IMG/VR virus record: IMGVR_UViG_3300024255_000066
Span: 1-39,276 of that record
Source of the DNA: a virus
DNA: 39,276 nt
Direction: 5' to 3' (one strand)
In this document: in pieces, positions 1-37,715 of the stretch
How positions within the stretch are numbered: position 1 is the first letter of the stretch
How the letters are laid out: each line of letters starts with the position of its first letter
The notes under the pieces: model-generated
The model's input: the letters and a program-made list of their open reading frames with translations, nothing else
What the model was told of the DNA's origin: nothing
Database searches by the model: none
Made by a program: the position numbers and the translations under genes

Positions 1-2070
1 TTCGAAGCATTTAATGCAATCTCGGCAGATATGAGAGAAAACCTGGCTGGCTCTATTGGTGAAGTCCAGGAAAGAATTGACAGCTTAAACATTGAACAGA
101 TAGACAACCTAAGTAATTCCCTGAATTCTATTACGCTTGAAAGCCTTGGCGAGACCTTCGGGAATTTTGGTAAGCAAATGATGTCAGTTAAGCTCATGAT
201 TGAGCAGTTCTTTGCTAACATTGCTACCACAATGCCTGGTGTTCAGAAGCTAGTGCAGGTCGTCATGGCGGTTATCGGTGGCGCAATTCAAGCTACGGTT
301 GTCGGCGCTCTGGGTTTGCTTCGATTCTTACTGCATGGCATTGAGACCGTTGTTAATGGATGGATGTTGCTCGCACAAGCTTTCGTCGAATTCGTTAAGT
401 TGATTCCTGGAGGGCAAGCGCTTATCGATGCCCTGGTCGGAACTTTTAGTGATGTCGTCACGGGATTGCAGAAATTTACTGACAGCTGGCTGGGTGTTGG
501 CAAGGAGTCGCTAAAAGCTGAGCAAGATCTTAGTACTGTTGACGGCCGCATCTTGGAGTTGACGAACAGATTCAATTCTGGCAAGATAACTGCCGAAGAG
601 TACGCTGCAGGCATCGCAGAAATTCGTGCAGAAGCTCAACGTGCAATTGACATGGGAGAGCTTGAAAAACTTACCGAAAAGGTTGAAGAGCTCAAGGAAA
701 AAGTCAAAGAAGCTACGCAAGCCGAGGAAGGTGCACAGTCTGCCTTCGATGCTGAGAAAGAAAAGCTTTCTGCTTTAAAAGAAGGCGTAAAACAGTACTT
801 TGATGAGAAGAAAGCGGCTCTAGATCAGCAAAAAGAGGCCACCACACAGGCTTATGACGCTGAAATCGCTAACATTAAGCGGGCTCAAGAGGCTCAAGCG
901 TCTCGTCACGAAGCGGAAATGAGCAACCTTGAGCAGCGAAATGAGGCTGTTCAGGCGTCTATCCAGTCCGAAATTGACGCTTTAGGTGGTAAAACGCCTG
1001 CAGAAGAGAAGCTTGCGCAGATGCGTAAGGAAGAGATCATGGATAAACTGAGGTCTAATGACCTTAGTGAGAAAGAGAAGCTACAATTACAGGCTCAACT
1101 TGAGCGCATGGAGCGCCAGAAGCAAATCGAGGAAGCTCAGCTACGACTGAAGGCGGCGAAGGAGAACGCAGCCAAGACTGAAGCGGCTTTAGCCGAGAGG
1201 CAGAAGGAAGAGCAGGAAGAGTTAGCTCAAGCAGAGGAAGAAGCTAATGAGGCCAAGAAAGCGGCTTTGGACGAAATCAAAGAGAAGCAGAAGGCTTTGG
1301 TCGAGCAGCAGAAGAGAATCACCGAGTTGATGGATGAAAGCAAAAATATTACTGATCTTACTGGTCAAAGTATTGGTGAGATAACAGCGAAGGTGAAGAG
1401 CCAAGTCGCTTCTTATAACGAAGCCAAGGATGCTCTTAGCGAAGCGAAGGACGAGACTTCAGACATGAAGACCCAGCTCGAAGCCGCGACCCAGAAGGCG
1501 AAAGAATTCGAGAAAGAGCTACAGGCAGTTGCGAAACAAGCAGGTAAAGCGGCTGCTCAGTGGCGAGGGGTTGCAGCAGCCAAGCAATCTGCTGCAGCCG
1601 TGGATGTCGGTAGCCCCGGCGGCGGTAAAGGCCAGAAGCCCACCCTTACCGGTGGCGCTGCCGGGATGATGAGTAACAATGGCGTGCGTGCAGCTGGTGG
1701 TCCTGTTATTGGTGGTGGCAGGTACACGGTTAACGAACTCGGCGCGGAGGGCTTTATGTCAACTTCCGGAAGACTCTCTGCGATCAAGGCGCCGGCATTT
1801 GGTCAGTGGACAGCACCTGGTTCAGGTACCGTTATCCCTGCGCATGTCTGGGCGGGTATGAAAGCTCAAAGCAATGCTGCAAGCGGAGGCGGTATGCCAT
1901 CGGCCGCTGGACAGTCAGGTGGAATGATGGCACGTCTTTCCGCTCTTGGAAGAGCAGGAAGCAGCGACGTCGTTACCAACAACGTTACGATCCAGTCAGA
2001 GAATGTAGACCAGACGTTGCAGCAGTCTCTGGTTAGCTTGCGTCGTATTAAGCGAGCTCGGTATTATTGA
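1..2070 (+). CDS. Tape measure protein, C-terminal part (5' end outside window)
   Basis: The frame is open from base 1, so the first visible Met (base 31) is internal and the true start lies upstream. Counting from that Met, residues about 70-145 are strongly hydrophobic, as in the membrane-active segment of tape measure proteins. Residues about 200-510 form a long Glu/Lys/Ala/Gln-rich coiled coil. The tail from about 530 is Gly/Ala/Ser-rich and contains GGPVIGGGRYTVNELGAEGF followed by a GTVIPAHV element, a C-terminal signature I recognise from many phage tape measure proteins. Known role: it sets tail length and is ejected during DNA delivery. It is followed by small tail-tip genes, the usual context. 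No lysozyme or peptidase domain is visible in this part. The family call is firm; the total length is unknown. Confidence 0.87.
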   Translation, partial: FEAFNAISADMRENLAGSIGEVQERIDSLNIEQIDNLSNSLNSITLESLGETFGNFGKQMMSVKLMIEQFFANIATTMPGVQKLVQVVMAVIGGAIQATVVGALGLLRFLLHGIETVVNGWMLLAQAFVEFVKLIPGGQALIDALVGTFSDVVTGLQKFTDSWLGVGKESLKAEQDLSTVDGRILELTNRFNSGKITAEEYAAGIAEIRAEAQRAIDMGELEKLTEKVEELKEKVKEATQAEEGAQSAFDAEKEKLSALKEGVKQYFDEKKAALDQQKEATTQAYDAEIANIKRAQEAQASRHEAEMSNLEQRNEAVQASIQSEIDALGGKTPAEEKLAQMRKEEIMDKLRSNDLSEKEKLQLQAQLERMERQKQIEEAQLRLKAAKENAAKTEAALAERQKEEQEELAQAEEEANEAKKAALDEIKEKQKALVEQQKRITELMDESKNITDLTGQSIGEITAKVKSQVASYNEAKDALSEAKDETSDMKTQLEAATQKAKEFEKELQAVAKQAGKAAAQWRGVAAAKQSAAAVDVGSPGGGKGQKPTLTGGAAGMMSNNGVRAAGGPVIGGGRYTVNELGAEGFMSTSGRLSAIKAPAFGQWTAPGSGTVIPAHVWAGMKAQSNAASGGGMPSAAGQSGGMMARLSALGRAGSSDVVTNNVTIQSENVDQTLQQSLVSLRRIKRARYY
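2060..2068 (+). promoter_or_regulatory. GGTATCCTA-like motif (GGTATTATT)
   Basis: First G lies 29 bases before the ATG at 2089. It overlaps the end of the tape measure gene. Its core TATTAT resembles a bacterial -10 box. One of the weaker copies of the recurrent motif (last base T). Confidence 0.35.
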
Positions 2071-2088
2071 TATACACGAACCGGCTTG

Positions 2089-2463
2089 ATGTTCTATTTT
2101 GGCGATCCAGCGGCTACAGCTGAGCTGATGATACAAGAAAGTGTACGCTCCGATGGCCCAGGATGGCCCGTAACACCCTTGGAGTATTGGAGTGTAAGAG
2201 ATAGCCAGGCGGCGATGATCTACGCCTCCAGTACCCTCAGAAGAGCCGTCTACGAAACCAACGACCACGAGATCCTTCAGGCGCTCTGCGATACCTACGA
2301 GAAGTACTTGGACGAGTTCTCTCAGGTTGATGACGTGGTTTATAGAGCGATGAAGATCAACGAGCATCAATTCCCTTGGCGTCAGCCGGATGCGATGGTT
2401 CGTCAGAAGGCTATAGTCATGAGAAACTATAAGATGACTAAACTTCCTCCATCGGAAGACTAG
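2089..2463 (+). CDS. Small tail-region protein, unknown function
   Basis: A 124-residue, mostly alpha-helical-looking protein rich in charged and aromatic residues, with no signal peptide or membrane segment. I do not recognise the family. A TTG at 2086 sits just before the ATG at 2089; the ATG is chosen because it is the stronger start and is correctly spaced from the upstream motif at 2060. It lies directly after the tape measure gene and before the tail-tip genes, a position often held by small tail-completion or chaperone-like proteins, but that role is inference from position alone. No Shine-Dalgarno is visible. Confidence 0.75.
   Translation: MFYFGDPAATAELMIQESVRSDGPGWPVTPLEYWSVRDSQAAMIYASSTLRRAVYETNDHEILQALCDTYEKYLDEFSQVDDVVYRAMKINEHQFPWRQPDAMVRQKAIVMRNYKMTKLPPSED
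2454..2462 (+). promoter_or_regulatory. GGTATCCTA-like motif (GGAAGACTA)
   Basis: Fits the G-G-N-A-N-(C/A)-C-T-A pattern 28 bases before the ATG at 2482 and overlaps the stop of the preceding gene. The same 9-mer occurs at 2846-2854, 37 bases before the start at 2883, so it may be partly coincidental. Confidence 0.3.
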
Positions 2464-2481
2464 TCCAGTCTCTTTCCAACC

Positions 2482-2883
2482 ATGGCAGGCCTAGCTATTG
2501 CGTATTCCAGCCAAAATGGCGGTGGGACTTGGAATATCGTCTTTAAGGAGTTCACCTCTAGTGATTTCCCTAGACAATGGGAGAGCGCTGCCGGGTTTGC
2601 TCGAAGCCAAACAGGTGCTCTTGTCCAGGGAGGCCCAAGGTATGGTCAGAAGTACATATGGGTTATTGACTGCATGCTGGACGCGCCTGAAGCATTACTG
2701 CTAAACGCTTTGTATACTTCATGGGATTACGACAGATCTCAGGGTAAATCAGTCGCTGTGGGTGTCACTGACGCCACTTTTGGCAGCCTCGTCACAACAC
2801 AGGCTTCTTTTACGACTCCGCCAACCTTTACTTACGCTAGTCCACGGAAGACTATCGTCAACTTTGGAATGGTGCAGGTCTGA
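2482..2883 (+). CDS. Small tail-tip structural protein, unknown function
   Basis: A 133-residue protein, beta-rich in appearance, with many Thr, Ser and aromatic residues and a C-terminal run of short alternating strands ending in FGMVQV. No signal peptide or membrane segment. Its stop codon shares one base with the start of the next gene (TGATG), so translation of the pair is probably coupled. The size, beta character and position between the tape measure and the hub-like protein would fit a distal tail or adaptor protein. I see no diagnostic motif, so the product stays unassigned. Confidence 0.75.
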   Translation: MAGLAIAYSSQNGGGTWNIVFKEFTSSDFPRQWESAAGFARSQTGALVQGGPRYGQKYIWVIDCMLDAPEALLLNALYTSWDYDRSQGKSVAVGVTDATFGSLVTTQASFTTPPTFTYASPRKTIVNFGMVQV

Positions 2884-4934: not shown

Positions 4935-6262
4935 CTTCCTCCTTTTTCGAGATTACGATATCGGATGAGACCCATATCGATAATGGGAACTCCGGTACTG
5001 ACGTCCAGATTAATCAGGCTCAGTCCTGGAAGATGGATTTCGCTACGCCTTCTGGCTACTATCTCGCGGCGCCTGCTGAAGAGAAGATTAGTTGGCGTCA
5101 TTCTTTCGTCTTTTACGTCAGCGGAACGATCTGCGAGGCTGGTGACATCGTCACGCTCACACCAAACGGAGACGTGCCTGCGGAATACAACGGAAACGCA
5201 TTGGCAGCAGACGCGGTAATCGTCACACCTGAAATCTTTTTCAGCAAATACGCTGACTCTGGTGATGGGACAGAGGAGCCAGGACCCATTGCACAGCCAC
5301 CTAGAGCCGCTGATGGCAAGGTTACGACACCAACGAACGTCGTTTTCTTGTACCATGCTGACATGAACGTGCCTGAGTGGAAAGATTCCTCTGGTTTCAC
5401 CAGGCCAGTGGTTGAGACAGGGCTCCCTGAGATGGATCAGATTCGCAAAAGCTTTGGACCAGGTTCCCTGCTTCTTCCTGACAACAACCTCAACAATGGA
5501 TTACTGGCTCCTTTGAGCCAAGCAGAAGGCCGTAACTTTCAAGATTTCTCGTTTACTTGGGAAGCGAGGCTGCGGTTTGATTCCGTAGAGCCAAAAGAGC
5601 ACATTCTCCTCTCTTACGGCTTGGCGGATAACACGTTACTCGAGATCACGGCTAGATTTTACCTCAACGCAGAGGGTGAGCCAAAACAGTCAATCAAAGT
5701 CGACTGGACGACCGCCATTGATGAAGATCCATCCGAGCCGGCAACGGTTGACGGTATAGAGATAGAACTTGCTGATGGCACATGGAAAGCCAAGCCAGAA
5801 CAGCTACAGCAGACTTCCATTGTATACGCAAAGAGCACCGGAGAGTTTGGTATTCATGTTGACGGAATTCAGGCTGGATATATCAACGCGAGTGAAAGAG
5901 TTGAGCCTCTGTGGGAAGCAATCTTCCTTCATGACTGGGAAGAAGAATGTGATGAGGACGGTGTCTGCCCTAGTCCCGATCGAATCATAGCCACTGGATG
6001 TACTTGTCTTAACGGCATCGTAGACCTCAACATTCAGCGTGAGCGAGCCTTCGTTGGCCGCATGGATGAGATCCGCTGGACAGTAGGAGAAGCTCTTTAC
6101 GACCCAGCGTACCCAACAGCTCAGGTCTACACCTTTGCTTGGCCTAATCCGATTGTTGACATCCTGAATACCGTCGACTTCGCACCGCCTCTACCTTCTC
6201 CTGACACCCCTACTGGTCCAGACCTGCCCGGCGAGCCAGGCGAAGAAGAACCGGAGCCCTAG
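4931..6262 (+). CDS. Tail-tip protein with a LamG-like (concanavalin-fold) domain
   Basis: 443 residues. Residues 1-105 are a beta-rich domain of unknown type. Residues about 136-400 look like a LamG-like jelly roll: an opening VVFLYHADMN...KDSSG strand, a FGPGSLLL turn, FSFTWEARLRF, GIHVDGIQAGY, and the closing RAFVGRMDEIRWTVGEALYD signature that ends many Laminin_G_3 domains. An extra Cys-containing loop (residues 340-359) is inserted before the last strands. The C-terminus is Pro/Glu-rich. Such domains in virions usually bind glycans or pack against other fibre domains. It starts inside the stop of the hub gene (ATGA), indicating coupling. Fold assignment is by eye and would need a profile or structure search. 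Confidence 0.75.
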   Translation: MTSSFFEITISDETHIDNGNSGTDVQINQAQSWKMDFATPSGYYLAAPAEEKISWRHSFVFYVSGTICEAGDIVTLTPNGDVPAEYNGNALAADAVIVTPEIFFSKYADSGDGTEEPGPIAQPPRAADGKVTTPTNVVFLYHADMNVPEWKDSSGFTRPVVETGLPEMDQIRKSFGPGSLLLPDNNLNNGLLAPLSQAEGRNFQDFSFTWEARLRFDSVEPKEHILLSYGLADNTLLEITARFYLNAEGEPKQSIKVDWTTAIDEDPSEPATVDGIEIELADGTWKAKPEQLQQTSIVYAKSTGEFGIHVDGIQAGYINASERVEPLWEAIFLHDWEEECDEDGVCPSPDRIIATGCTCLNGIVDLNIQRERAFVGRMDEIRWTVGEALYDPAYPTAQVYTFAWPNPIVDILNTVDFAPPLPSPDTPTGPDLPGEPGEEEPEP

Positions 6263-6270
6263 GTATCCTA
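6262..6270 (+). promoter_or_regulatory. Consensus motif GGTATCCTA
   Basis: Perfect copy, 29 bases before the ATG at 6291, immediately after the stop of the upstream gene. TATCCT resembles a -10 hexamer; a start site about 7 bases downstream would leave a leader of about 15 bases. No -35 box is apparent. Confidence 0.5.
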
Positions 6271-7523: not shown

Positions 7524-8716
7524 TGTCAGAAAACGTCAACCACGTAGGTACATTCTGCCTGCTTCACTGCGATGAGAGAAACGAGGATTTTGAGATCGCT
7601 CTGGTTGACAAGGGTCGCCTGGGTAGGAATGTAGCAACTTCCGGCCTTTTCGTTAACCCGTTCGATAGCCCGTTCGAGGATTTTGATGAAATCTCTTTTG
7701 GCTCTACCGTCTTTCCTGTTGACTCCATTGAGAATCCAGGAAGCGGTGATATCGGAGGAAGCCTGATATCGATTCCAAGCGGTAGTCTTTTGGCTTGGCA
7801 AGACAAGAGCTTTTCTATTGAATTCTGGATGAATCCCAGGGCACTTGCCAACTCCGACAGAAGGATGCCACTCGCTTTCTCCGGAGGAACGAGCGAAGAG
7901 GAAGACTGGGGTGTCGAGATTTTCAAGCCATACGGTGAGACTAACTATGAGTTAAGGTTTAGCTGGACGGATATCAATACATTCCACAAATACGCAAGCT
8001 GGACTGTAGACGTTGACTTGATCAAACTCAATCAATGGCAGCATTTTGTCATTCAGTACGATGCGGGTATAAGCTTCTTTAACTGGTGGCTGGATGGGGT
8101 ATCTCAAGGACCACTTGAGAAGCCTACTACTCCTAACACTGGCCCCTGGAGCGGAGTAAACATAATTCAGACGTTAGACTCTTCTAACAATCTCACCATT
8201 GGCAACTACTGTCCAGGAAAGCGACTCAAGGAGTCTACCACCGAGTTCCCGTCTGTCTACAGGGGGTCCATTGCAGAGTTCAGACTCATCTCTTCTCTTG
8301 CTCCATTTCCTATCGCGGGAGACTTTGTACCACCTACAGAGCCCTACGTCAACGAAGAACGTGAGCCGGACCCAGAGCCTCCGGAAGAGGTTGTCATTAA
8401 TAGAGCGTTTGTCAATGGCCTGGACAAGCTCTATATCGAGAACGCTCGACACCTGCCTTCCTTGTGCACTGTCAAGACTCAAATGCCTCAAAGAGCCCCG
8501 GAGCTAGGCAACGCTGCTGGCGAATTGTACTTTTTCCGACCAGACCCTCAGCAGAACATCATCTTCATGTATGTTTACGTAAACACTAACGGAGAGGGAG
8601 AGGAGCCTGTGATGAGGTGGATGCCTGTAAGTACACCTATAAAAGGAAGGGAGAATCTGATTACAGGTACTCACTGGAGAAACCGTGCAGGGAACAGACT
8701 TGGTGAGCCATTCTAG
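7523..8716 (+). CDS. LamG-like lectin-fold virion protein
   Basis: 397 residues. Residues about 8-265 show a LamG-like jelly roll: CLLHCDERN opening, F-S-I-E-F-W-M-N-P central strand (98-105), QWQHFVIQYD (171-180), a W-W-L-D-G-V-S turn, and the closing YRGSIAEFRLISSLAPF segment. A Pro/Glu linker (270-290) leads to a C-terminal domain of about 110 residues that contains G-E-L-Y-F-F-R-P and ends with T-H-W-R-N-R-A-G-N-R. The N-terminal domain is the second LamG-like unit in this tail-tip set after the gene at 4931. It may present a carbohydrate-binding face. Start overlaps the previous stop by one base. Confidence 0.75.
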   Translation: MSENVNHVGTFCLLHCDERNEDFEIALVDKGRLGRNVATSGLFVNPFDSPFEDFDEISFGSTVFPVDSIENPGSGDIGGSLISIPSGSLLAWQDKSFSIEFWMNPRALANSDRRMPLAFSGGTSEEEDWGVEIFKPYGETNYELRFSWTDINTFHKYASWTVDVDLIKLNQWQHFVIQYDAGISFFNWWLDGVSQGPLEKPTTPNTGPWSGVNIIQTLDSSNNLTIGNYCPGKRLKESTTEFPSVYRGSIAEFRLISSLAPFPIAGDFVPPTEPYVNEEREPDPEPPEEVVINRAFVNGLDKLYIENARHLPSLCTVKTQMPQRAPELGNAAGELYFFRPDPQQNIIFMYVYVNTNGEGEEPVMRWMPVSTPIKGRENLITGTHWRNRAGNRLGEPF

Positions 8717-8724
8717 GTATACTA
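8716..8724 (+). promoter_or_regulatory. GGTATCCTA-like motif (GGTATACTA)
   Basis: 30 bases before the GTG at 8746; the first base overlaps the upstream TAG stop. Contains TATACT, very close to a canonical -10 box. Confidence 0.5.
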
Positions 8725-13529: not shown

Positions 13530-13538
13530 GGAACCCTA
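13530..13538 (+). promoter_or_regulatory. GGTATCCTA-like motif (GGAACCCTA)
   Basis: Lies in the 43-base gap between two giant genes, 32 bases before the GTG at 13562. Fits G-G-N-A-N-C-C-T-A. Confidence 0.4.
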
Positions 13539-16557: not shown

Positions 16558-16566
16558 GGGATCCTA
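16558..16566 (+). promoter_or_regulatory. GGTATCCTA-like motif (GGGATCCTA)
   Basis: 30 bases before the GTG at 16588, just after the upstream stop. Confidence 0.45.
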
Positions 16567-16587: not shown

Positions 16588-19500
16588 GTGGCTCTATTTC
16601 CCAAGAATATAGTCTTCAGGAATTCGGGCAACACTCTTGGTGGACTTAGGTCATATTTCGCTGCTTTTACTGACCAGGCTTTAAAGACGGGTGAGCTGTT
16701 TGTCAAGTACGACCCCAATGAGGCCGGGTACGTCTCGCTGCTAACTCAGGACCCGGAATTCAATGAAGCTGTCTCTGTTTTTGGTGGCCTACCCCAATTA
16801 GCGGACGCAACTTATTCCTCAAGGAACCTTCAGCACTTATCTACTCTTGTCTGGAAAGAAGACCGCTTACGTGTCTATGAAAACCCTGAGCAACCTGGCG
16901 ACATCGTTGAAGAGCTAGGTGACGGCTGGGGCATCAGTGCGCCGTTCCCATTCAGACTTTTCGAGAGCTCCATTGACGAATTAGAGGATGTCGACTCTTC
17001 TAGTGGAATTCCCAGAGGAAAGGCTTACGGTGATGCTCTTACCTGGAGGTTTATCGGAGACGGCCCAGAAGGATACTTTGAGACAGGGCCCGGTCTAGGT
17101 GAGCCCATCACCGGAGTGGAAGGTACTGCCAGCCTGAGCGACACCCTTGTTGTCACCTATCCTGATGGTGCGGCAGGCATTGCAGACAATTCTCGACTGG
17201 TCTGGAACCAGCGCAACCTTCAGTGGGAGCCGAAAGAGGTAACCCCCACGCTAGAGAACAGAGGCGATACTGATTTCTCGGAAGGCGATCCTGTAGACGG
17301 CGATGGCCTCGTCTACGACGAACTCAACGAGACATGGTCTCCAGGTGCCGTCCTAGAAGAAGGCGTGATCAAGATTTCCGATGGCCGTCGGGGTGTTGAC
17401 AAAAAGAAAGAGATTGTTGTTCTAACAGGTAAGGCTGATGGCTGGAAGCAAGACGTCCTCTATAGCAGCGGCGAGACAGAATGGATATCTCCTTCTACGG
17501 AATACCATCCGTTCGGTTCTGACTGGATGCTGTCTCTCGGTGTTTCAATCAAAACAAAAGACAACTCACCTGGTGATTACTGGGAAAGATTTCCTGATGG
17601 ATGCTTCTTTCTGCAGCAAGGGCAGCTTAGGCCTAATAACTTTTCTAACCAATATATCTCGAAACTCCGCCTTGATAACAGGCTAAACCTTGAGGACACC
17701 GACTACTATGCCGAAAGAGGTGCGATAGGATACGAGCACAGCATTCCTCCTATTACCAGCTCGGGCACCAGGGCTCGGCAGCCAATGTCCTGGGATGGCG
17801 ACTATACCGTTCAGTTCTGGCTGCGCTTTAACGATGAGATCAACGATGTATACACCGACAACCCAAACCCAACCCGATCAGGTCAAAGGTGGGAGATCAT
17901 CGATATCGACGGCCAACTTGCGTGTTTCTTGCGCTGGGAATCAACCTTTACTTCAGGGAACTTGCCGGTACAAAACCTTAAGCTGATCTATGGTCCATCA
18001 GGTATCGAAGAGACGCTGGTTCTTAACGCGCAAGCAGCTACGGATTACCATGTCTGTTTTGTCTACTCAGCTGCAGACGCTAGATACAAGGTATGGATCA
18101 ACGGTGTTTGCGTTGCTCAGCGAAGCATTCCGATTGTTGGCAGTTCTACGTTTATTGATTTCAGGGAGCTTGAGATTGGACAGACATCCACAAGCAGCTT
18201 TTCGAATGGTGCAGTCACTTGCTACTTCGCTGACCTAATTATATCACTCGTCAAGGAGCATGATACGCTTCCTACTAGCATCCTGGACGGCACTCGAGAG
18301 TTCGCACCTCCGGGACCATGGGCCAGGAGACTCGTAGAAGGTCCCAAGGCGGCTCTACAGACCCTCGGTATAACTAAGACGGGGTTATTTAGCTGGATCG
18401 CCAAAGAGCAGCCCTACAAGTGGAACACAGCCTTTGGAAGCAAGCAGAGCTACTGGGTAGAGCAACCGCTCAACATGGACCAAAGGTCGTTCGTTGGCAA
18501 CGAAGTATTGAGTTGGGATGGATCTAAGTTCGTCACAACTAAGGAAGCTGGAGGAAATGACTTCAGGGCTAAACTCAGTCCTGGGAGCCCAATTGCAGAT
18601 GGTAAGAAATACTTCAGTTCAATTTTCAATGCGAGCAGCGCTTTCCCTACGCAAGATCTTCTATCGGGCTCAATTAATGTAAGCAGGTGGCACACCGATG
18701 GCAAGGGCAACCTGGAGACCTTTGTAGATTCAGGTTTAACCTACGGCGTATCTGAGACATACGGCTACGCCAATACTCGCTTCGGAACCTGGGAGAACAC
18801 GCCTTTCGGGTTTCCACTCCCAGGAATGCACGGGACGCCAGGCATCTACGCTACGCCTATACAGCGATCGGACACCTTGAATGTCAAGGGCTGGATCCCC
18901 CCGAACACTGACATCCCTATATCGCTCGCAGAGGATCTTGTTGACCAAAATGGTGAGGGCTTTCATGGCTGCGCTATTAAGTTCAAGGTAATCAAGTGGC
19001 AGGATCTCGACAATATCATTGGAGGCGCCTTTAGTTCTACACGCGAAGACATACGTATCTCGGTAGATCCCACCGGGAGACTTGAGTTTAGAATTACACA
19101 ATCTGCTGGTATTTATGCGCCGAACAGGACTGATGATTCAGGAACGGAACCTTACAGCCTTTTCCAGTTCTACAACGGCTTTTATAATTATGTTGAATTT
19201 GACACTAGGCCTGACATACTTAACAACGGGGAGATTAACGAAATTGTTATTTGTCAAGACTTTCTCAATGCTGGTCTGTACGTATATGTTAACGGTGTTA
19301 ACGAATTTCTGTACAATGTTAAGAGTGAGGGGTTTCAAGGACTAGTACCTGGAGACGAGCCTGGACTAGTCACAGATGATGCTATCATCGGCAGGTGGCA
19401 TCCGGACCGAGTCGGGCAGTCAGGCAGGTTCTACAAGAACAAGGGCTTACCTAATTACATCGCCATAGACAATGGGAGCGGATGGTATAAGGAATGGGCC

Positions 19501-22500
19501 GAAGAGAACGATCGGTTTGGTGATCGCCTGTACAGGTTTAGTGCATTCGCGCAAGGCGCATTACTGCAAAATTCAAGTGGATCACTCGAAGCCTTTCGGT
19601 CAAGGACTCTTGAGGATCCTCAATGGAATGGCCAAGCTTTTTATGACTTCACTGCAGCTGGCTGGTATGACGCTGAGACAAGTCATCCTGGACAGTCCAC
19701 GTTTACTGGAACTCAGAGACACTTTGTAGGTCATCCTGGCTTTGTCCAGAGTTCCAACGAGCTAACGAATACGGGTGGCGCAAAGACTCGGATCCAAGGC
19801 CAGCTGATTGGGTCAGGCAGGGTTCTGTTCGGCATGTTGGCGAACGATGGCGACCGATTCAACAATGAGTCAAGTTTCCTTCGTGATCGCTTTGGTCAAA
19901 ACAACTGGCAATTCGTTGACTCTTACGAGCTTGGATTAAATGGATCGAATGACTTCTACTCTAGCGGCAGGCAAGTTGATCAAACTCTAAACTACTTCCA
20001 GGATGTGGTCACCATTGGCCCAGCTTGGCGTGAAGGCGAAACCTGGATTCATAATGCTGGCTTGTTCTCCGCAGGCATACCTGATTTTGGCCCTATTACT
20101 GAATTGGCAGCTAATGAGCCGATCACCAACTTGCAAGATGGCGACAGCCTGTACTGGGACGTAAGACTAAAAGGTTATGTCAACCGTCAAGAGGACGAGA
20201 GCGAATATGCTTTGGACGATCTGCGAGACGTCACGATCACAAATCCTAGCAGTAATGATCAAGTATTCTACAATGCAATTACTCAGGAGTTCGTAAACCA
20301 AAGGTATGATTACGTCTCCTCTCTGAGGGGTATGAACGATGTCAGGCTCCCACCCGTAAGCGAAGCAATAGAAGGATCGCTCATTGCTTGGGACGCCGCC
20401 TCTTCTTACTACAAGGAGTACTTGTCTGTGGCGGCCCTCGACATCGGTGACCTGATTGATGTCAACTGGGAGGCTACAAACGCTAGAGGAGGATACAAAG
20501 ACAGCACTTATTATATCTACTGGGATGCCATCGCTAAACAATGGTCTTCCATTGCGGACGAACGCAACGGTACTCAGGTCGTTAGAGAGTGGAGGGGTGA
20601 ATGGGAGTTGACCGAGATGGTCGACATGTACCAGGACAAGCAGGTAGGTCGAGCTCTGACCTCTTCAGCCCCGGCAGACAGTAGATACCAGTGGTACGAT
20701 CCTTACAGGCGAGAGTACAGAACTGAGCCCGCGGCTTTTAATGAGTCAGTCTCGGGAATAGTCAACACAGGTCGTGGTGATGGCGGCGATTTCGAGTATG
20801 GAGACATTGACTTTGGCTCACCACTAGGTGTCTTTGGTGGAGGCAACTTCGAGACAGGAGAAGAAGATCGTCCAAAAGAAATGATAGAAGGCTTGAATGG
20901 TGGCGACTTTGTCTTTGACAACAGGAGGGGAATGGACCTTCGACCTGGCCCTATCCAGGAAACAGATTACACCGACCTTATCCTCTACTTCGACGGCGAA
21001 AATCCTGAGATTGATTCTAGTAATAGAGACTCTAGTAACGACATGACGGTACACGGTTCCGCTCAGATCGTACAGGACAATACGACTGAAGGCAAGCCTG
21101 GTTACCTCGAGTTTCCTGTCTTTGCTTTTACTGAACAATACAATGCCATCAGTGTTCTAGACCTACCAGAGATACCAAAGAACTATGGGCCTGAAGGTTG
21201 GTTTTCTTACCGCATCGCTAACAATTGGGAGATCCAGAACGACTCTTGGTCTATTGAGATGGACATCCGTCTTGATCAGGAAGACACGCATGACTGGCAT
21301 TGGTTTACGCATGGGAATAGACAGATGGATGTTGGCTTTGAGTTCCGCAACCAGGCGACCATGACATCAAGAGAGCTTGGTCTCTATGGCGTAGATGCCG
21401 TAGATACAATGTCCTTTAAATGGAAACCTCGCGACAGGACGGAGATAGATTACACGATACCTCTTGGGGAGCCTGGAGATGCTCGGCCCTGGTCCTTTGG
21501 GGAGTTCAAGCGAATGATCCTTTGCTTTGACGCTGAGACAACTCGACTAAGCCTTTACTATGATGGATTACAGGTTGTAACAGTCCTTCTGAATTCTCTT
21601 CCAGGCTGGCTGCCAGACGACGGTTTTATTATGGATGAATGGGACCGCTTTGACTATTTCCAAAGACTCTTAACCTTAGGATCTAGCCCTTGGTTCAATC
21701 GGGGTGCGAACATGCAGGGCGCGATTGACAACGTTCGTCTATCAAGGCGAGTCATCCCCTACGACGCAAGCTTCCCGACAACTCCTGAGGTCCTTGCTCC
21801 ATACCCACTACATCCAGCCAGGGCGCCCTTCGACGTCGATGGCAGACCTGAGAATGATAAGCCTTATGTCTCTGCCTGTCTTGAATTCAAGCAAGACACC
21901 TTCAGCGGAAGCCGCTATCTCTATCCTCACCGTGTCGGACAGGACAGCACTGGCTTTTTCTGGCTGCCTAACAAGTTTGCTCTCGCGGCCGACGAGGTAA
22001 CTGATCCCTATGACGAATCAGTTGCTTGGCCGTATCAGACAAGGTACAATGTTGGATACAAGATTCAGTCCCAGACAGAATTCTATTCAGCAGTAAGATC
22101 TATTAACTTGACCAATGGTGTAAGTAATTACCCGCAAGGATGGAATGGTCGGCAAGGGCTCAGGAGACCGGTGTCGCCAATCTTTGATCTAGCGGCTACG
22201 ACCTTCACCGTTGAAGCGGTGATAGAAGTTCGTCATAGTCACACCGCTAGTTTCAAGCTGAGTCAATACGATGACCTGATTCCACCAGAATTCTATTACC
22301 ACTCTTCTTATCTTCTCAATTGTGCAGCAGAGGAGGACTTGTCTGACGTTACCTCTGGACGGTCGTGGGCTATTCGAGTTTTTGACTACGCTCCGTACGA
22401 TTCTAAGAAGTTTGGCAGGCCATGGGAGAACGGCGTTAAGTTTGAGTTCTGGACGTTAGATGACGATGACGAGGTCCAGTACAACAGCCTTGACTTCATG

Positions 22501-22878
22501 TTTGGGCCTCAGGTTTGGAGCTCGCCTAGGGGAGAGCGTTACGAGCCACCAGGAAACGAAAGGGTAGCCTGGCCTGCACAACCCGATGGAGAATTCGCCC
22601 ATGTTGTCGTTCAACGTGACATGAGGAAGGGCACCGTGACCGTGATCATCAACGGTCAGAGCATGACCAAGTATCATCCTGAAATCAAGAAGCCTTTCAG
22701 GGATTTGTCGCAATTCACAAATCACTTGGTTGCTTTAGGCATGGATGCCAATATGAACTTTGATACTGGAAATGACATGGATGGACAGGTGAATTACATC
22801 CGAGTAATTAGTGGCAAGCTGTTGTATGGCAAGTCAGCTGAGTTCCCGGTGCTTCCCGCAACGCTTTCGGCAACCTAG
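16588..22878 (+). CDS. Giant fibre-like protein (2096 residues) with four LamG-like domains
   Basis: Starts at GTG with the MALF-type anchor (residues 1-60, with L-K-T-G-E-L-F-V). LamG-like domains fall at about 300-570 (Y-T-V-Q-F-W-L-R-F, Y-K-V-W-I-N-G-V), 660-960 (L-Y-V-Y-V-N-G-V), 1460-1750 (S-W-S-I-E-M-D-I-R-L, L-S-L-Y-Y-D-G, G-A-I-D-N-V-R-L-S-R-R-V-I) and 1810-2090 (F-T-V-E-A-V-I-E-V, V-T-V-I-I-N-G-Q, V-N-Y-I-R-V-I-S-G). LxDLxDV-type spacers lie at about 130 and 1209-1300. A DGGDF / GGGNF / NGGDF cluster sits at 1398-1441, the position that ends the neighbouring 996-residue protein; here about 650 more residues follow. This suggests fusion or domain gain. Largest gene of the window; very likely an external adhesive fibre. 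Confidence 0.78.
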   Translation: MALFPKNIVFRNSGNTLGGLRSYFAAFTDQALKTGELFVKYDPNEAGYVSLLTQDPEFNEAVSVFGGLPQLADATYSSRNLQHLSTLVWKEDRLRVYENPEQPGDIVEELGDGWGISAPFPFRLFESSIDELEDVDSSSGIPRGKAYGDALTWRFIGDGPEGYFETGPGLGEPITGVEGTASLSDTLVVTYPDGAAGIADNSRLVWNQRNLQWEPKEVTPTLENRGDTDFSEGDPVDGDGLVYDELNETWSPGAVLEEGVIKISDGRRGVDKKKEIVVLTGKADGWKQDVLYSSGETEWISPSTEYHPFGSDWMLSLGVSIKTKDNSPGDYWERFPDGCFFLQQGQLRPNNFSNQYISKLRLDNRLNLEDTDYYAERGAIGYEHSIPPITSSGTRARQPMSWDGDYTVQFWLRFNDEINDVYTDNPNPTRSGQRWEIIDIDGQLACFLRWESTFTSGNLPVQNLKLIYGPSGIEETLVLNAQAATDYHVCFVYSAADARYKVWINGVCVAQRSIPIVGSSTFIDFRELEIGQTSTSSFSNGAVTCYFADLIISLVKEHDTLPTSILDGTREFAPPGPWARRLVEGPKAALQTLGITKTGLFSWIAKEQPYKWNTAFGSKQSYWVEQPLNMDQRSFVGNEVLSWDGSKFVTTKEAGGNDFRAKLSPGSPIADGKKYFSSIFNASSAFPTQDLLSGSINVSRWHTDGKGNLETFVDSGLTYGVSETYGYANTRFGTWENTPFGFPLPGMHGTPGIYATPIQRSDTLNVKGWIPPNTDIPISLAEDLVDQNGEGFHGCAIKFKVIKWQDLDNIIGGAFSSTREDIRISVDPTGRLEFRITQSAGIYAPNRTDDSGTEPYSLFQFYNGFYNYVEFDTRPDILNNGEINEIVICQDFLNAGLYVYVNGVNEFLYNVKSEGFQGLVPGDEPGLVTDDAIIGRWHPDRVGQSGRFYKNKGLPNYIAIDNGSGWYKEWAEENDRFGDRLYRFSAFAQGALLQNSSGSLEAFRSRTLEDPQWNGQAFYDFTAAGWYDAETSHPGQSTFTGTQRHFVGHPGFVQSSNELTNTGGAKTRIQGQLIGSGRVLFGMLANDGDRFNNESSFLRDRFGQNNWQFVDSYELGLNGSNDFYSSGRQVDQTLNYFQDVVTIGPAWREGETWIHNAGLFSAGIPDFGPITELAANEPITNLQDGDSLYWDVRLKGYVNRQEDESEYALDDLRDVTITNPSSNDQVFYNAITQEFVNQRYDYVSSLRGMNDVRLPPVSEAIEGSLIAWDAASSYYKEYLSVAALDIGDLIDVNWEATNARGGYKDSTYYIYWDAIAKQWSSIADERNGTQVVREWRGEWELTEMVDMYQDKQVGRALTSSAPADSRYQWYDPYRREYRTEPAAFNESVSGIVNTGRGDGGDFEYGDIDFGSPLGVFGGGNFETGEEDRPKEMIEGLNGGDFVFDNRRGMDLRPGPIQETDYTDLILYFDGENPEIDSSNRDSSNDMTVHGSAQIVQDNTTEGKPGYLEFPVFAFTEQYNAISVLDLPEIPKNYGPEGWFSYRIANNWEIQNDSWSIEMDIRLDQEDTHDWHWFTHGNRQMDVGFEFRNQATMTSRELGLYGVDAVDTMSFKWKPRDRTEIDYTIPLGEPGDARPWSFGEFKRMILCFDAETTRLSLYYDGLQVVTVLLNSLPGWLPDDGFIMDEWDRFDYFQRLLTLGSSPWFNRGANMQGAIDNVRLSRRVIPYDASFPTTPEVLAPYPLHPARAPFDVDGRPENDKPYVSACLEFKQDTFSGSRYLYPHRVGQDSTGFFWLPNKFALAADEVTDPYDESVAWPYQTRYNVGYKIQSQTEFYSAVRSINLTNGVSNYPQGWNGRQGLRRPVSPIFDLAATTFTVEAVIEVRHSHTASFKLSQYDDLIPPEFYYHSSYLLNCAAEEDLSDVTSGRSWAIRVFDYAPYDSKKFGRPWENGVKFEFWTLDDDDEVQYNSLDFMFGPQVWSSPRGERYEPPGNERVAWPAQPDGEFAHVVVQRDMRKGTVTVIINGQSMTKYHPEIKKPFRDLSQFTNHLVALGMDANMNFDTGNDMDGQVNYIRVISGKLLYGKSAEFPVLPATLSAT
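22869..22877 (+). promoter_or_regulatory. GGTATCCTA-like motif (GGCAACCTA)
   Basis: 30 bases before the GTG at 22899, overlapping the upstream TAG stop. An identical 9-mer lies at 37371. Confidence 0.45.
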
Positions 22879-26248: not shown

Positions 26249-26257
26249 GGCATCCTA
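26249..26257 (+). promoter_or_regulatory. GGTATCCTA-like motif (GGCATCCTA)
   Basis: 30 bases before the ATG at 26279, right after the upstream stop. Confidence 0.48.
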
Positions 26258-28863: not shown

Positions 28864-28872
28864 GGTATCCTA
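28864..28872 (+). promoter_or_regulatory. Consensus motif GGTATCCTA
   Basis: Perfect copy in the 44-base gap after the protease gene, 34 bases before the ATG at 28898. Confidence 0.5.
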
Positions 28873-32188: not shown

Positions 32189-32205
32189 TCTGCAGGCAAA
32201 TAGCG

Positions 32206-32229
32206 GCCCCTCTTCTGAGGGGCTTTTTT
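32206..32229 (+). terminator. Rho-independent terminator
   Basis: Perfect 7-base stem GCCCCTC/GAGGGGC with loop TTCT, followed by six T. It ends the transcript of the cupredoxin fibre gene; a GGTACCCTA motif for the next gene starts 11 bases later. Confidence 0.92.
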
Positions 32230-32239
32230 AATGGCAGTG

Positions 32240-32248
32240 GGTACCCTA
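32240..32248 (+). promoter_or_regulatory. GGTATCCTA-like motif (GGTACCCTA)
   Basis: 29 bases before the ATG at 32269. It overlaps an upstream in-frame ATG at 32248, which argues that 32248 is not the start used. Confidence 0.5.
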
Positions 32249-32268: not shown

Positions 32269-33924
32269 ATGTCTGCACCGTCGAACCGCATACCTGTTAG
32301 ACCGGCAAGAGGCACGCGGCAGATCCTGGGTATTGATATTGATAAATTGCAGGAAGGCGAAATTGTCTTTGCACGCGACGAAGATTCTCTGTACGTTAAA
32401 GACAATGGCGTCCTTGTGAACGTCGGGTCAGGCTCAGGCATTAGTGATCAGATTGTTAGTGCGAAGCTTACTTGGAGCGTTTTGTTGTCCAACAACAACC
32501 TGTACACATTCTCGGGTCCCGGTCTGGACGATACCTTTGAACTCCCTACGATCTACCTAATTCGTGGACAGAAGTATAAGTTTGTGCACGCTCTGTCGAC
32601 TGATACATTTCAGATCACGACAACCAATGGCACACCCTACAATGTTGGAGTGCTTGGCAACCCGGCCTTCGAGAGCTCGATTGAATGGGAGGTTTCGATG
32701 CAGGCGCCTCAGAACCTTCGCTACAGCTCAACAACAAACAGCACAGTCAACCAGGGCAAGTTCATTGTCATCTCTGACACGTTTACCTTGGCCATCGAGG
32801 ACTTGGATAACGTCAACTCAACCGATGCTGTAGATGGCGATGTTCTTGTTTGGTCAGAAAGCCAGCAGGAATGGAAGCCCGCTCAGGTGACCACTGGTGG
32901 CACCACGAACCTTTCTGGATTGACCGACGTAGATACGACTGGCGTTATCCAGGATGACGTGCTGAAGTACAACGGTACGTTCTGGGTTGCATCGCCGGAA
33001 GCAACTGATCCAGGTACGGCTGGACGCAAGTCAACTGTTGCAGTTGATGATACCCGTTCGGGCCAGATGCTAGGAACAGAGTTCATCTTAAACGGAACTG
33101 TTAACTGGACAGACCTTGGCTTTGATATCATCGGTGGAGCTTCCGGGGCAGGTGTCAATGAATGGATATCTTCGGACCGGATTACATGGCTGGATAACTG
33201 GTCACCTCTTGGTCGATCTGATTCGGCGCCAGACAACGAGTACTTTAACTTTGACGGTTCAGGACGACTGATTTCTTTCACAAACTCGCCACGGAACCAT
33301 GTTCCTGTTTCGTCGACCAAGAAGCTCTCGGTGCCTCAGAATAATGCATTGTGCTATGTTGCTTTCCTGAATGCATCTCAGACCTTCATACATCAAGCCG
33401 GCCAACAGAGCATAACCATTGATGGCATTCCATGGGTGGTCATTCGGATCGAGTACCGAAAGTTTGACACCTACCTGGCGATGGAGTACTGGATGAGTCC
33501 TGATGGCCATCTTAAGATGCTCTACGGCCGCCCTCAGAATGGCTTCACCATTGACGCTGGTCCTAACGGGAACGGTCTGGTCTTTGCTTCTAGGTCCGAT
33601 GACGCGACCCTTGGCGACGCAAACTTTGTGCTACCTGGCTTGACGTCAGCTGGAGACTATAGCATTGAGTTCTGGTATAACGGCAGTGGCTATAATCTTG
33701 ACGACCTGGCGAACGTAGCTGACTCTAGTACCGATCCGCCAAGGCAGAACTTTCCCCTTGTATGGGACAACGGATCATGGAGGCCAGGCAGTATCGTTAG
33801 GGACGGAGCTCAGGCCTCAACTTCAGGTGGTGACCTTGGAATCTTTGCTGTCGATGCAACGTACCTTTACGTCTGTGTTGCCAACAATCAGTGGAAAAGA
33901 ATCCCTTTGGAATCCTTCGTTTGA
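32269..33924 (+). CDS. Fibre-like protein with anchor, ligand-less cupredoxin-like domain and LxDLxDVD repeats
   Basis: 551 residues from ATG 32269; an in-frame ATG at 32248 is rejected because it overlaps the motif and because alignment with paralogues begins at MSAPSNR (compare MPTPTNR in the gene at 22899). Anchor 1-53 (R-I-P-V-R-P-A-R-G...L-Q-E-G-E-I-V-F-A-R-D...L-Y-V-K). Residues about 70-170 are cupredoxin-like (Y-T-F-S-G-P-G, I-Y-L-I-R-G-Q-K-Y-K-F, L-R-Y-S-S) but lack His, Cys and Met ligands. LxDLxDV repeats at 177, 218 and 478. Residues about 255-440 match the beta domain of the 22899 product (I-E-Y-R-K-F...M-E-Y-W-M-S-P-D-G). The end has Y-L-Y-V-C-V-A-N-N-Q-W-K-R, a common phage fibre terminus. 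Confidence 0.78.
   Translation: MSAPSNRIPVRPARGTRQILGIDIDKLQEGEIVFARDEDSLYVKDNGVLVNVGSGSGISDQIVSAKLTWSVLLSNNNLYTFSGPGLDDTFELPTIYLIRGQKYKFVHALSTDTFQITTTNGTPYNVGVLGNPAFESSIEWEVSMQAPQNLRYSSTTNSTVNQGKFIVISDTFTLAIEDLDNVNSTDAVDGDVLVWSESQQEWKPAQVTTGGTTNLSGLTDVDTTGVIQDDVLKYNGTFWVASPEATDPGTAGRKSTVAVDDTRSGQMLGTEFILNGTVNWTDLGFDIIGGASGAGVNEWISSDRITWLDNWSPLGRSDSAPDNEYFNFDGSGRLISFTNSPRNHVPVSSTKKLSVPQNNALCYVAFLNASQTFIHQAGQQSITIDGIPWVVIRIEYRKFDTYLAMEYWMSPDGHLKMLYGRPQNGFTIDAGPNGNGLVFASRSDDATLGDANFVLPGLTSAGDYSIEFWYNGSGYNLDDLANVADSSTDPPRQNFPLVWDNGSWRPGSIVRDGAQASTSGGDLGIFAVDATYLYVCVANNQWKRIPLESFV
33909..33917 (+). promoter_or_regulatory. GGTATCCTA-like motif (GGAATCCTT)
   Basis: Within the last codons of the upstream fibre gene, 30 bases before the ATG at 33939. 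Last base is T instead of A. Confidence 0.35.
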
Positions 33925-33938
33925 TTGCATCTTAAGAA

Positions 33939-34322
33939 ATGGCTGACACCAAAGATCTGTACATGGAACAGTTCCGTTCTGCCGGCAAGCTTCCGACGGG
34001 TCCTATCTCCCCTTGGCCTCAGGGAAGGGACATCAGAACGATCGATCAGTTCGAAGGCAAAGGAGGCAAGCAGAATGCCAACAAGGTCAAGGCCAGCGCC
34101 TTTGAACAACTGAAGGGCTTAGGGAGAACTGCAGCTCAAGCAGCTCGAGAAGGTAAGACGACTCCAGAGATTCGAGCAGAGAGACTAGAGACATGCTGGT
34201 CGTGCCAGCACTTTATCAAAGACTCTAGTCGCTGTGGGTTATGTGGATGTTTCATGAAAGCCAAGACATGGGTTGCAGGAAATCCCAACAAGCTATGTCC
34301 CGCTCAAAAGTGGAATAGGTAA
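33939..34322 (+). CDS. Small Cys-rich, probably zinc-binding protein
   Basis: 127 residues. The basic, probably flexible N-terminal two thirds precede a C-terminal Cys module at about 84-124: E-T-C-W-S-C-Q-H-F, then S-R-C-G-L-C-G-C-F-M-K-A-K-T-W, then L-C-P-A-Q-K-W. The C-x2-C...C-x2-C-x-C...C spacing fits a zinc ribbon. I have seen similar short modules ending in CP-x2-KW in marine phages, but I cannot name a characterised function. It sits between the fibre cluster and the scaffold gene and shares the motif-driven start style. No strong Shine-Dalgarno. It might be a head-related or regulatory factor; that is open. Confidence 0.75.
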   Translation: MADTKDLYMEQFRSAGKLPTGPISPWPQGRDIRTIDQFEGKGGKQNANKVKASAFEQLKGLGRTAAQAAREGKTTPEIRAERLETCWSCQHFIKDSSRCGLCGCFMKAKTWVAGNPNKLCPAQKWNR

Positions 34323-34326
34323 TATA
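34318..34326 (+). promoter_or_regulatory. GGTATCCTA-like motif (GGTAATATA)
   Basis: Spans the upstream TAA stop and lies 32 bases before the ATG at 34350. The same 9-mer occurs at 36278-36286 in the leader of the gene at 36352. Confidence 0.4.
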
Positions 34327-34349
34327 CGTCGTAACTTTCGTCCGGCGAG

Positions 34350-35114: not shown

Positions 35115-35139
35115 CAATAGTGTAAGACCGAATCACCCT

Positions 35140-35159
35140 GGGGCTGCGGCCCCTTTTTT
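35140..35159 (+). terminator. Rho-independent terminator after the scaffold gene
   Basis: Stem GGGGC/GCCCC with loop TGCG, then six T. It separates scaffold from capsid transcription, or sets their ratio by partial read-through. Confidence 0.88.
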
Positions 35160-35172
35160 AATGTTTAGAAAT

Positions 35173-35325
35173 GGCATCCTTTAAGATAGGTATCATATCT
35201 ATAGATCACCCAAACGGGATACTTCGTGATGAAGTTGAACTGACGGGTGTCGAGCTGAAGGAAGCGCGATGCTTTTCTAGGCAACATACCCAATCTAGTC
35301 CAACTTCACTAAGGATTTATTAATC
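35173..35325 (+). promoter_or_regulatory. Capsid gene leader with two motif copies
   Basis: The 166 bases between the terminator and the capsid ATG hold GGCATCCTT at 35173-35181 and GGTATCATA at 35189-35197. Both lie more than 120 bases from the start, so the capsid transcript probably has a long leader, unlike the other genes. AAGGA at 35311-35315, ten bases before the ATG, is a usable ribosome site. A 50-codon frame (35171-35323) also crosses it; see the rejected list. Confidence 0.4.
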
Positions 35326-36222: not shown

Positions 36223-36248
36223 TCCTAGTCACAACTGAATAGAGACGA

Positions 36249-36267
36249 GGGGCCATGAGCCCCTTTT
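36249..36267 (+). terminator. Rho-independent terminator after the capsid gene
   Basis: Stem GGGGC/GCCCC, loop CATGA, followed by TTTTCTC. Same stem sequence as the terminator after the scaffold. Confidence 0.82.
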
Positions 36268-36277
36268 CTCATGCTTA

Positions 36278-36328
36278 GGTAATATAGTTATGTAAGCCAA
36301 ATCTCGCTCCGGTAAGTTTGGTACCATT
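36278..36328 (+). promoter_or_regulatory. Two GGTATCCTA-like motifs before the decoration-like gene
   Basis: GGTAATATA at 36278-36286 and GGTACCATT at 36320-36328. The second is 32 bases before the ATG at 36352, the usual spacing; the first may be an extra start point just after the terminator. Confidence 0.4.
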
Positions 36329-36351
36329 TGCTCTTCATTCTGTAACTAACT

Positions 36352-36690: not shown

Positions 36691-36713
36691 TCTACTTAGA
36701 CAACTAAATAAAG

Positions 36714-36735
36714 GGGGGCCGTTGAGCCCCCTTTT
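36714..36735 (+). terminator. Rho-independent terminator after the decoration-like gene
   Basis: Stem GGGGGC/GCCCCC, loop CGTTGA, then TTTTC. An ATG at 36739 lies only four bases past it, which argues against that ATG being a true start. Confidence 0.85.
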
Positions 36736-36740
36736 CTAAT

Positions 36741-36749
36741 GGCAGCCTA
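36741..36749 (+). promoter_or_regulatory. GGTATCCTA-like motif (GGCAGCCTA)
   Basis: 31 bases before the ATG at 36772. It begins two bases after the first base of the competing ATG at 36739, so the motif supports the shorter protein. Confidence 0.42.
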
Positions 36750-36771
36750 TATTGACATAACGGTTCCAACC

Positions 36772-37368
36772 ATGGCAGACCCCATTTACGGCCTTGCACA
36801 GGCTCAACCTAGAGACGTCTTCAACTTCATGAAGGCCAACCACCAGCCTTTAGCAATCGTTGGGCGGTTTGAATATCTGCCTATTCTTGCTAACAAGGTT
36901 AATGCTGGAGATAGTATCGGGCTGCTGAACGGAGTGGAGATGATCATTAGCGACGAGGTTCTTTACTATGAGGAGCCTATGCTTAATGGCCAGTTACGTA
37001 GATACGCAAAGATCAAAACCTTCTTAGGATCCTTTGGTACCTTCGGTCGTTCTGCCGGGGTCAAGGTGGTTGACGCTATTGAGAATCTTGGCTATGTGGA
37101 TGGAGAGATCCTGGCAGAGTGGGAAGCAGTTGAAAGCGTAGAATTCTCAAGGGCCCTTGGACTAAAGGACGATGCCTTTGACCCAACTGATTTCAACTAT
37201 GGTCTTTTGTTTGAGTTCAGAGCAGGAGCTCCTCGTTACATGCATGACGGTGCTTCTCTGATGGATGCTCCTCATGATGGCCGCCAGTATGTAAGGGCCG
37301 ACGGAGTATGGGAACTGTCGGACCATTTCTCTCACCCAGACATCGATGGCGGCAACGCTTTCATCTAA
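36772..37368 (+). CDS. Structural protein with a phage tail W-motif and a DGGN tail
   Basis: 198 residues from ATG 36772 (MADPIYG); a longer frame opens at 36739 but abuts the terminator and contains the promoter-like motif. The first 150 residues are a mixed alpha/beta domain I do not recognise. The C-terminal part has D-A-P-H-D-G-R-Q-Y-V-R-A-D-G-V-W-E-L, a short element common at the junctions and ends of phage fibres, and the protein ends D-I-D-G-G-N-A-F-I, related to the DGG tags of the giant proteins. It is therefore probably part of the fibre/whisker apparatus although it lies among head genes; a neck or collar fibre is a possibility. Confidence 0.65.
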   Translation: MADPIYGLAQAQPRDVFNFMKANHQPLAIVGRFEYLPILANKVNAGDSIGLLNGVEMIISDEVLYYEEPMLNGQLRRYAKIKTFLGSFGTFGRSAGVKVVDAIENLGYVDGEILAEWEAVESVEFSRALGLKDDAFDPTDFNYGLLFEFRAGAPRYMHDGASLMDAPHDGRQYVRADGVWELSDHFSHPDIDGGNAFI

Positions 37369-37370
37369 TC

Positions 37371-37379
37371 GGCAACCTA
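37371..37379 (+). promoter_or_regulatory. GGTATCCTA-like motif (GGCAACCTA)
   Basis: 33 bases before the ATG at 37404; identical to the copy at 22869. Confidence 0.45.
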
Positions 37380-37403
37380 CTCTTGTAACTCTAGGACTTA
37401 CCA

Positions 37404-37700
37404 ATGGCTATTATCCAGCCTGATGACAGATCTGCCCTAAAGCCTCTGCGTGGTACGTTCGAGGCCTTAAACGCTAATGTTGTAGACATTAAAGAAAACG
37501 AAATCTGTTATGCAACAGACACCAAGCAACTCTACATCAAAGCTGGTGGGTCATTGGTTGCAGTAGGGGCCAACCTAGGCCTTTCTACTCTCTCAGCTCT
37601 TTCGGATGTGCGTGTTACTGTTCCTCAGGACGGAGATGCGTTGCTTTATTCTTCAGGAGAATGGAGAAATGGTGGAATGCAAGACGGTGGCAACTTCTAA
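37404..37700 (+). CDS. Miniature fibre protein: anchor, one repeat, DGGNF end
   Basis: 98 residues containing a minimal set of the parts used by the giant fibre proteins. Residues 1-53 are the anchor (L-K-P-L-R-G-T...I-K-E-N-E-I-C-Y-A-T-D...L-Y-I-K-A-G-G-S-L-V-A-V-G-A). Residues about 60-88 are one L-S-A-L-S-D-V repeat with D-G-D-A-L-L-Y and E-W-R. The last five residues are D-G-G-N-F. AGGA lies seven bases before the ATG. It is too short to be a receptor-binding fibre by itself; it could cap or occupy the attachment site of the larger paralogues. That function is inference. Confidence 0.72.
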   Translation: MAIIQPDDRSALKPLRGTFEALNANVVDIKENEICYATDTKQLYIKAGGSLVAVGANLGLSTLSALSDVRVTVPQDGDALLYSSGEWRNGGMQDGGNF

Positions 37701-37706
37701 GTCGTA

Positions 37707-37715
37707 GGCAGTCTA
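37707..37715 (+). promoter_or_regulatory. GGTATCCTA-like motif (GGCAGTCTA)
   Basis: 36 bases before the ATG at 37743, the longest spacing in the set; one mismatch to the C-T-A core context. Confidence 0.3.

Follow-up and report, generated by a model that had tools for sequence, protein, structure and literature searches.

The closest described counterpart of the system analysed here is late transcription in bacteriophage T4, which involves gp55, gp33 and gp45 and is directed by late promoters that consist of a −10 element only and are found throughout the virion genes (PMC2988020, PMC7892883). At its C-terminus T4 gp55 has a conserved epitope for the clamp, preceded by a variable linker, and the authors of that work raise the question of why fused late sigmas are unknown (PMC2988020). 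We analysed a 39,276-base viral contig (IMG/VR record IMGVR_UViG_3300024255_000066; hereafter the window) together with its relatives, and focused on a recurrent nine-base motif located shortly upstream of many of its genes. Judged from its sequence context, this motif is very probably the late-gene promoter of this cyanobacterial virus. We consider it likely that these promoters are read by a −10-only phage sigma factor, with the host sliding clamp as a plausible link to replication; the system would then be a convergent analogue of T4 gp55.

Late promoters of another cyanophage, Ma-LMM01, have also been studied upstream of transcript starts; they differ in having a SigA-like TATTMT −10 element that is attributed to the host sigma (PMC5780444). 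Prochlorococcus phage P-SS2 encodes a group 3 sigma, ORF003, predicted to serve a particular regulon, and the same study looked for sigma-70 promoters with BPROM; the available part of that article does not report the motif described here (PMC2784084). Literature searches (open-access coverage) returned no report of it.

A reading made from the sequence alone had listed 16 copies of the motif, each of which we found at its listed coordinate and distance from the next start codon, with G1, G2, A4 and T8 the same in all 16. Since a weight matrix built from these sites would be circular on the window itself, we tested it (threshold 9 bits) on genomes outside the window, namely the cultured phages S-CBS2, S-CRES1, S-CRES3 and P-SS2 and 79 further IMG/VR capsid loci (818 kb). 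Between −41 and −26, 18 genes had a match of at least 9 bits in each of S-CBS2, S-CRES1 and S-CRES3, versus 0.57–0.68 expected (p = 2e-20, 8e-22 and 6e-21, respectively), as did seven genes of P-SS2 versus 0.21 expected (p = 3e-9). Other upstream bins held 0–5 matches, near background. De novo motif discovery, run without the matrix, found GGnAtcCTA again at about −31 in the window, S-CBS2 and S-CRES1.

Matches are also strongly strand-specific. On the plus strand of the window 13 of 16 are intergenic (15.2 per kb versus 0.08 per kb in coding DNA), compared with a single match on the minus strand; in the three Synechococcus phages the intergenic plus-strand density is 3.6–3.9 per kb versus 0.16–0.28 per kb in coding DNA. 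The 79 capsid loci contain 674 plus-strand versus 129 minus-strand matches; the most frequent spacing to the next start is 28 bases (103 cases), then 29 and 30. Chance or base composition as the source of the motif is ruled out by the held-out genomes and the strand asymmetry. Shared descent of whole intergenic regions was likewise rejected, since 334 distinct sites from these 79 contigs are left once contexts more than 70% identical have been removed.

The 334 sites have the consensus TnGGnATMCTA, which differs from the T4 late consensus, TATAAATA. In −10 register the pattern is a preferred T at −16, G at −14 and −13, A at −11, a partly conserved T at −10, A or C at −9, C at −8, T at −7 and A at −6, with purines at −1 and the predicted +1. 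There is no −35 information in the 334 sites, in agreement with the sequence-only reading, and no −35 hexamer accompanies the motif sites at the 16–18 bases of a sigma-70 −35/−10 promoter; the motif thus reads as an extended −10 element without a −35 element. The only upstream bias is for T, 8–13 bases before the GG, which we attribute to terminator tails. A hairpin with a T-run directly precedes 70 of the 334 sites, versus 1–5 in shuffled sequence and 17 in a downstream control, and these terminators mostly end 8 bases before the GG. At these 70 sites the terminator occupies the space in which a −35 element would lie, so transcription must restart there; of the sequence arguments favouring a promoter over an element acting in RNA, this placement is the strongest. 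Transcription would begin about 7 bases after T−7, predicting leaders of 14–16 bases for most genes, close to the 15 or so proposed earlier.

The major capsid gene (35326) is different in that its own promoters would have a longer leader. The three candidate sites ahead of it (35173, 35189 and 35280) had been overlooked in the sequence-only reading, and site 35189 and its counterparts lie about 130–140 bases from the start codon. The stretch between site 35189 and the gene, about 120 bases, is a conserved leader that could be aligned in 32 loci (the window, L042, L004, L005, L016 and about 27 others), where it opens with TAG at the predicted −1/+1/+2. Its predicted fold comprises two hairpins and a long-range stem, with compensatory changes at 12 of the 19 pairs. 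Because the covarying RNA begins at the predicted +1, it independently supports the transcript start of the promoter model. The leader of the window has no Rfam match. Its hairpin loops read GNGAY, and a GGGTG is able to pair with either of two CACCC sequences, one of them near the start codon; the leader may possibly act as a translational switch.

The genes that follow the motif are mainly those of the virion. The window has 23–24 long genes on the plus strand, including the end of the tape-measure gene, tail and fibre genes, the scaffold gene (34350), the major capsid gene and further fibre-like genes, and is a fragment of a virion module. Its capsid protein is 83–85% identical to those of the Synechococcus siphoviruses S-CBS2 and S-CRES1-3 and 51% identical to that of P-SS2. 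In S-CBS2, S-CRES1 and S-CRES3 the virion module holds 14–16 sites and the remainder 2–4 (Fisher p 1e-4 to 5e-4). Among the sites outside the module, one belongs to terS in each of the three phages, and S-CBS2 and S-CRES3 have another at ribonucleotide reductase; the same gene of S-CRES1 has a weaker match (8.8 bits). The motif is probably the late promoter −10 element of a Synechococcus/Prochlorococcus siphovirus lineage comprising S-CBS2, S-CRES1-3, P-SS2 and many uncultured relatives.

We saw no sigma gene in the window, a virion-module fragment. S-CBS2, S-CRES1-3 and P-SS2 carry a SigF-type sigma gene close to terL, the P-SS2 homologue being ORF003; no SigF-type sigma was found in S-CBS3, KBS-S-2A or S-CBS4, and the motif is absent from all three (the first 50 kb of S-CBS4 were scanned for it). 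No sigma at all was found in S-CBS4. The sequence-only reading had proposed a phage-specific late promoter class, and this proposal is supported by the bias of the sites in strand and position, by their location behind terminators, by the purine at the predicted +1, by their clustering among the virion genes and by the absence of the motif from cyanosiphoviruses without this sigma. As for the reader, a phage sigma had been suggested as one possibility, and the SigF-type protein near terL in the cultured motif-bearing phages is now the probable candidate; a modified host polymerase, the other possibility, is not needed. Host core RNA polymerase would most likely be guided to the motif by this protein, the second sigma of the phage.

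The best matches of the phage sigma are PHROG 36098 and SigF families; among NCBIfam models the best is SigF (PRK07408.1 and TIGR02980, covering cyanobacterial SigF and the SigB-SigF-SigG group 3 sigmas), with regions 2–3 only and all matches far below family cut-offs. Regions 2 and 3 are homologous to those of SigF/FliA, as expected of a group 3 SigF-type sigma. Unlike those sigmas, the phage protein has no detected region 4 and, in one clade, has an added C-terminal QxxLF. Across 43 homologues Pfam finds Sigma70_r2 in all 43 and region 4 in only one, at E 0.16, and hhalign aligns residues 16–136 only, region 4 being without a match. The AlphaFold model (mean pLDDT 78) has three more helices at 164–212 and a low-confidence tail. 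A promoter lacking the −35 element would suit a sigma whose region 4 does not work. The protein resembles T4 gp55 as a phage sigma of small size in which no −35-reading domain is recognisable, but differs in having regions 2 and 3, whereas gp55 is a diverged region 2.

Q-x-x-(L/V)-F forms the exact C-terminal end in 37 of the 43 aligned homologues; all 37 share its Q and F, while the preceding 25 residues vary. The distant sigmas of S-CBWM1 and Cr-LKS4 end without QxxLF. Ligands of the bacterial beta clamp have the pattern Q-phi-x-[L/M]-[F/L], in which Leu is best at position 2 but other residues are tolerated (PMC11139829). The arrangement recalls that of gp55, a clamp-binding-like epitope behind a variable linker, predicted here from the motif, except that the motif is of the bacterial beta-clamp type. 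No beta clamp and no family A, B or C polymerase domain was found in S-CBS2, S-CRES1, S-CRES3 or P-SS2, a search that did not extend to PCNA-like (T4-type) clamps, and no sliding clamp is annotated in these four genomes. Lacking a bacterial-type clamp and such polymerase domains, these phages should be replicated by the host replisome, and it is the host clamp that would be used. In the S-CBS2/S-CRES clade, binding of the C-terminal QxxLF to the beta sliding clamp of the host probably links late transcription to replication. A separate gp33-like protein, as in T4, was sought and rejected: the proteins of S-CBS2, S-CRES1 and S-CRES3 contain no other C-terminal QxxLF of the searched form. Tentatively, and with somewhat less than even confidence, we suggest that one phage sigma is a natural one-protein version of gp55 plus gp33, being made up of regions 2 and 3, a region-4 remnant too degenerate to read a −35 element and a C-terminal beta-clamp tag; it would recruit the host beta clamp, switch late genes on only from replicating DNA and have evolved independently of T4. 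Separately, the annotated SigF-type sigma of S-CBS2, gp077 (L003:6832-7452), stops early relative to its homologues and its QGSLF tail goes on in another frame, reflecting a frameshift or a sequencing error.

Several observations weigh against this picture. Position 2 of QxxLF is mostly Gly or Pro, also Ala, instead of Leu or another large aliphatic residue, and the affinity for the clamp may be low as a result. P-SS2-type sigmas lack QxxLF although a related motif, GGAAnnCTA, is present at the same place in P-SS2, so the clamp step is not universal; one clade would have gained the tail or the other lost it, and promoter recognition would not require it. Structural alignments run over residues 164–217 onto sigma region 4, making a degenerate region-4 remnant possible in the modelled protein. 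Furthermore, the motif-bearing phages are one lineage, so that the co-occurrence of sigma and motif is partly shared descent. Finally, these phages also carry another sigma, RpoD/RpoS-like and with a degenerate region 4.

This last point opens an alternative that we regard as unlikely, though the least so of those considered: the late promoters would be recognised not by the SigF-type sigma, which would serve another class, but by the RpoD/RpoS-like sigma encoded beside ssb. Both sigmas are present in S-CBS2, S-CRES1, S-CRES3 and P-SS2, and region 4 of the RpoD-like one is likewise degenerate. However, KBS-S-2A and S-CBS3 have an RpoD-type sigma only and no motif (though their region 4 is normal), the RpoD-like gene lies in the early module behind a host-type TTGACA–TATACT promoter, and the GG at −14/−13 resembles the −10 elements of SigB/SigF-type sigmas. 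The choice of the SigF-type sigma as reader rests on its architecture and on these control phages.

Much less probable is an element acting in RNA, such as an mRNA processing site or a translation enhancer. The very regular spacing of 28–30 bases to the start codon and the lack of a Shine-Dalgarno signal in the leaders would suit it, but a fifth of the sites directly follow an intrinsic terminator and demand new initiation, the invariant A and T are spaced as −11 and −7 of a −10 hexamer with purines at the predicted +1, and the capsid site is far from its start codon. Equally improbable is that host sigma A reads the motif as an ordinary cyanobacterial promoter. Despite a hexamer of TAnnnT type preceded by a G, and despite host-type extended −10 sites (for example TGGTAGACTG) elsewhere in these phages, the motif is absent from three cyanosiphoviruses of related hosts, has a free −12 and a fixed C−8 and A−6, unlike TATAAT, and is largely confined to late genes, with sigma-70-type sites at chance level in the right half of the window. 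A search for a T7-type polymerase (PF00940) gave no match in seven phages, but neither did it in control genomes and is thus uninformative.

Promoters read by the SigF-type sigma would complete a simple order of expression, from host-type promoters to the SigF-type sigma and then to the late genes. In most of 48 loci (among L091–L152) the SigF-type sigma gene itself has TGGTARAMTG, or a sequence close to it, upstream, usually at about −30. This second conserved −10 type, an extended −10, is found before some other phage genes too. We rejected it as a phage-only middle class, since the form is also present in KBS-S-2A and P-SS2 and is more likely host-type; for the same reason its reader is probably host sigma A or the first phage sigma. 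Cyanosiphoviruses, whose promoters are unmapped as far as the open-access literature shows, gain a testable late-gene regulatory system with a probable reader, and the matrix permits operon annotation in many uncultured relatives.

In two distant carriers, larger phages represented by the roughly 100-kb contigs G001 (L144) and G002 (L146), the sigma is 51–55% identical and a variant, CGGAAnCCT, lies near −32. Its likelihood versus an interior control is barely higher in G001 (73 versus 68) and clearly higher in G002 (80 versus 59), and no motif exceeded the control in G003. The variant suggests that sigma and promoter may have changed together.

The sites of the window were scored in a reverse test with a matrix built from relatives only (Table 1). 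Thirteen of the 16 originally listed sites score at least 10 bits; the other three (2060, 34318 and 36320), at 4.6–6.2 bits, are doubtful and may not be promoters. The match 37 bases ahead of gene 2883, mentioned earlier as lying outside the usual spacing, is a good one.

Table 1. Predicted late promoters, terminators and capsid leader in the window (bits from the relatives-only matrix)
Feature	Position	Strand	Context	Bits
Weak candidate late promoter −10 GGTATTATT	2060..2068	+	29 bases before ATG 2089; doubtful	4.7
Late promoter −10 GGAAGACTA	2454..2462	+	before gene 2482	10.9
Probable late promoter −10	2846..2854	+	within end of gene 2482-2883; 37 bases before gene 2883	at least 10
Late promoter −10 GGTATCCTA	6262..6270	+	before gene 6291	13.7
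Late promoter −10 GGTATACTA	8716..8724	+	before gene 8746	13.2
Late promoter −10 GGAACCCTA	13530..13538	+	before gene 13562	12.4
Late promoter −10 GGGATCCTA	16558..16566	+	before gene 16588	10.1
Late promoter −10 GGCAACCTA	22869..22877	+	before gene 22899	12.8
Late promoter −10 GGCATCCTA	26249..26257	+	before gene 26279	14.5
Late promoter −10 GGTATCCTA	28864..28872	+	before gene 28898	13.7
Intrinsic terminator	32205..32229	+	directly upstream of late promoter 32240	
Late promoter −10 GGTACCCTA	32240..32248	+	before gene with ATG 32269	12.0
Late promoter −10 GGAATCCTT	33909..33917	+	before gene 33939	10.9
Weak candidate −10 GGTAATATA	34318..34326	+	before scaffold gene 34350; doubtful	6.2
Intrinsic terminator	35140..35159	+	after scaffold gene, upstream of capsid promoters	
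Late promoter −10 GGCATCCTT	35173..35181	+	first of two ahead of major capsid gene	11.3
Late promoter −10 GGTATCATA	35189..35197	+	site conserved in relatives, aligned in 32 loci; predicted +1 A35203	9.4
Structured capsid mRNA leader	35203..35325	+	from predicted +1; compensatory changes, 12/19 predicted pairs, 32 sequences	
Possible third site GGCAACATA	35280..35288	+	46 bases before capsid gene; may be chance	8.5
Weak candidate −10 GGTACCATT	36320..36328	+	before gene 36352; doubtful	4.6
Late promoter −10 GGCAGCCTA	36741..36749	+	right after hairpin with T-run; before gene with ATG 36772	11.8
Late promoter −10 GGCAACCTA	37371..37379	+	before gene 37404	12.8
Late promoter −10 GGCAGTCTA	37707..37715	+	before gene 37743	10.3

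Two genes of the window deserve mention. The interval 16588-22878 holds a 2096-amino-acid gene of the virion module without a PHROG match, and the last gene (37743-39276), which is open at the contig end without a stop codon and has a repetitive look, probably encodes a long fibre.

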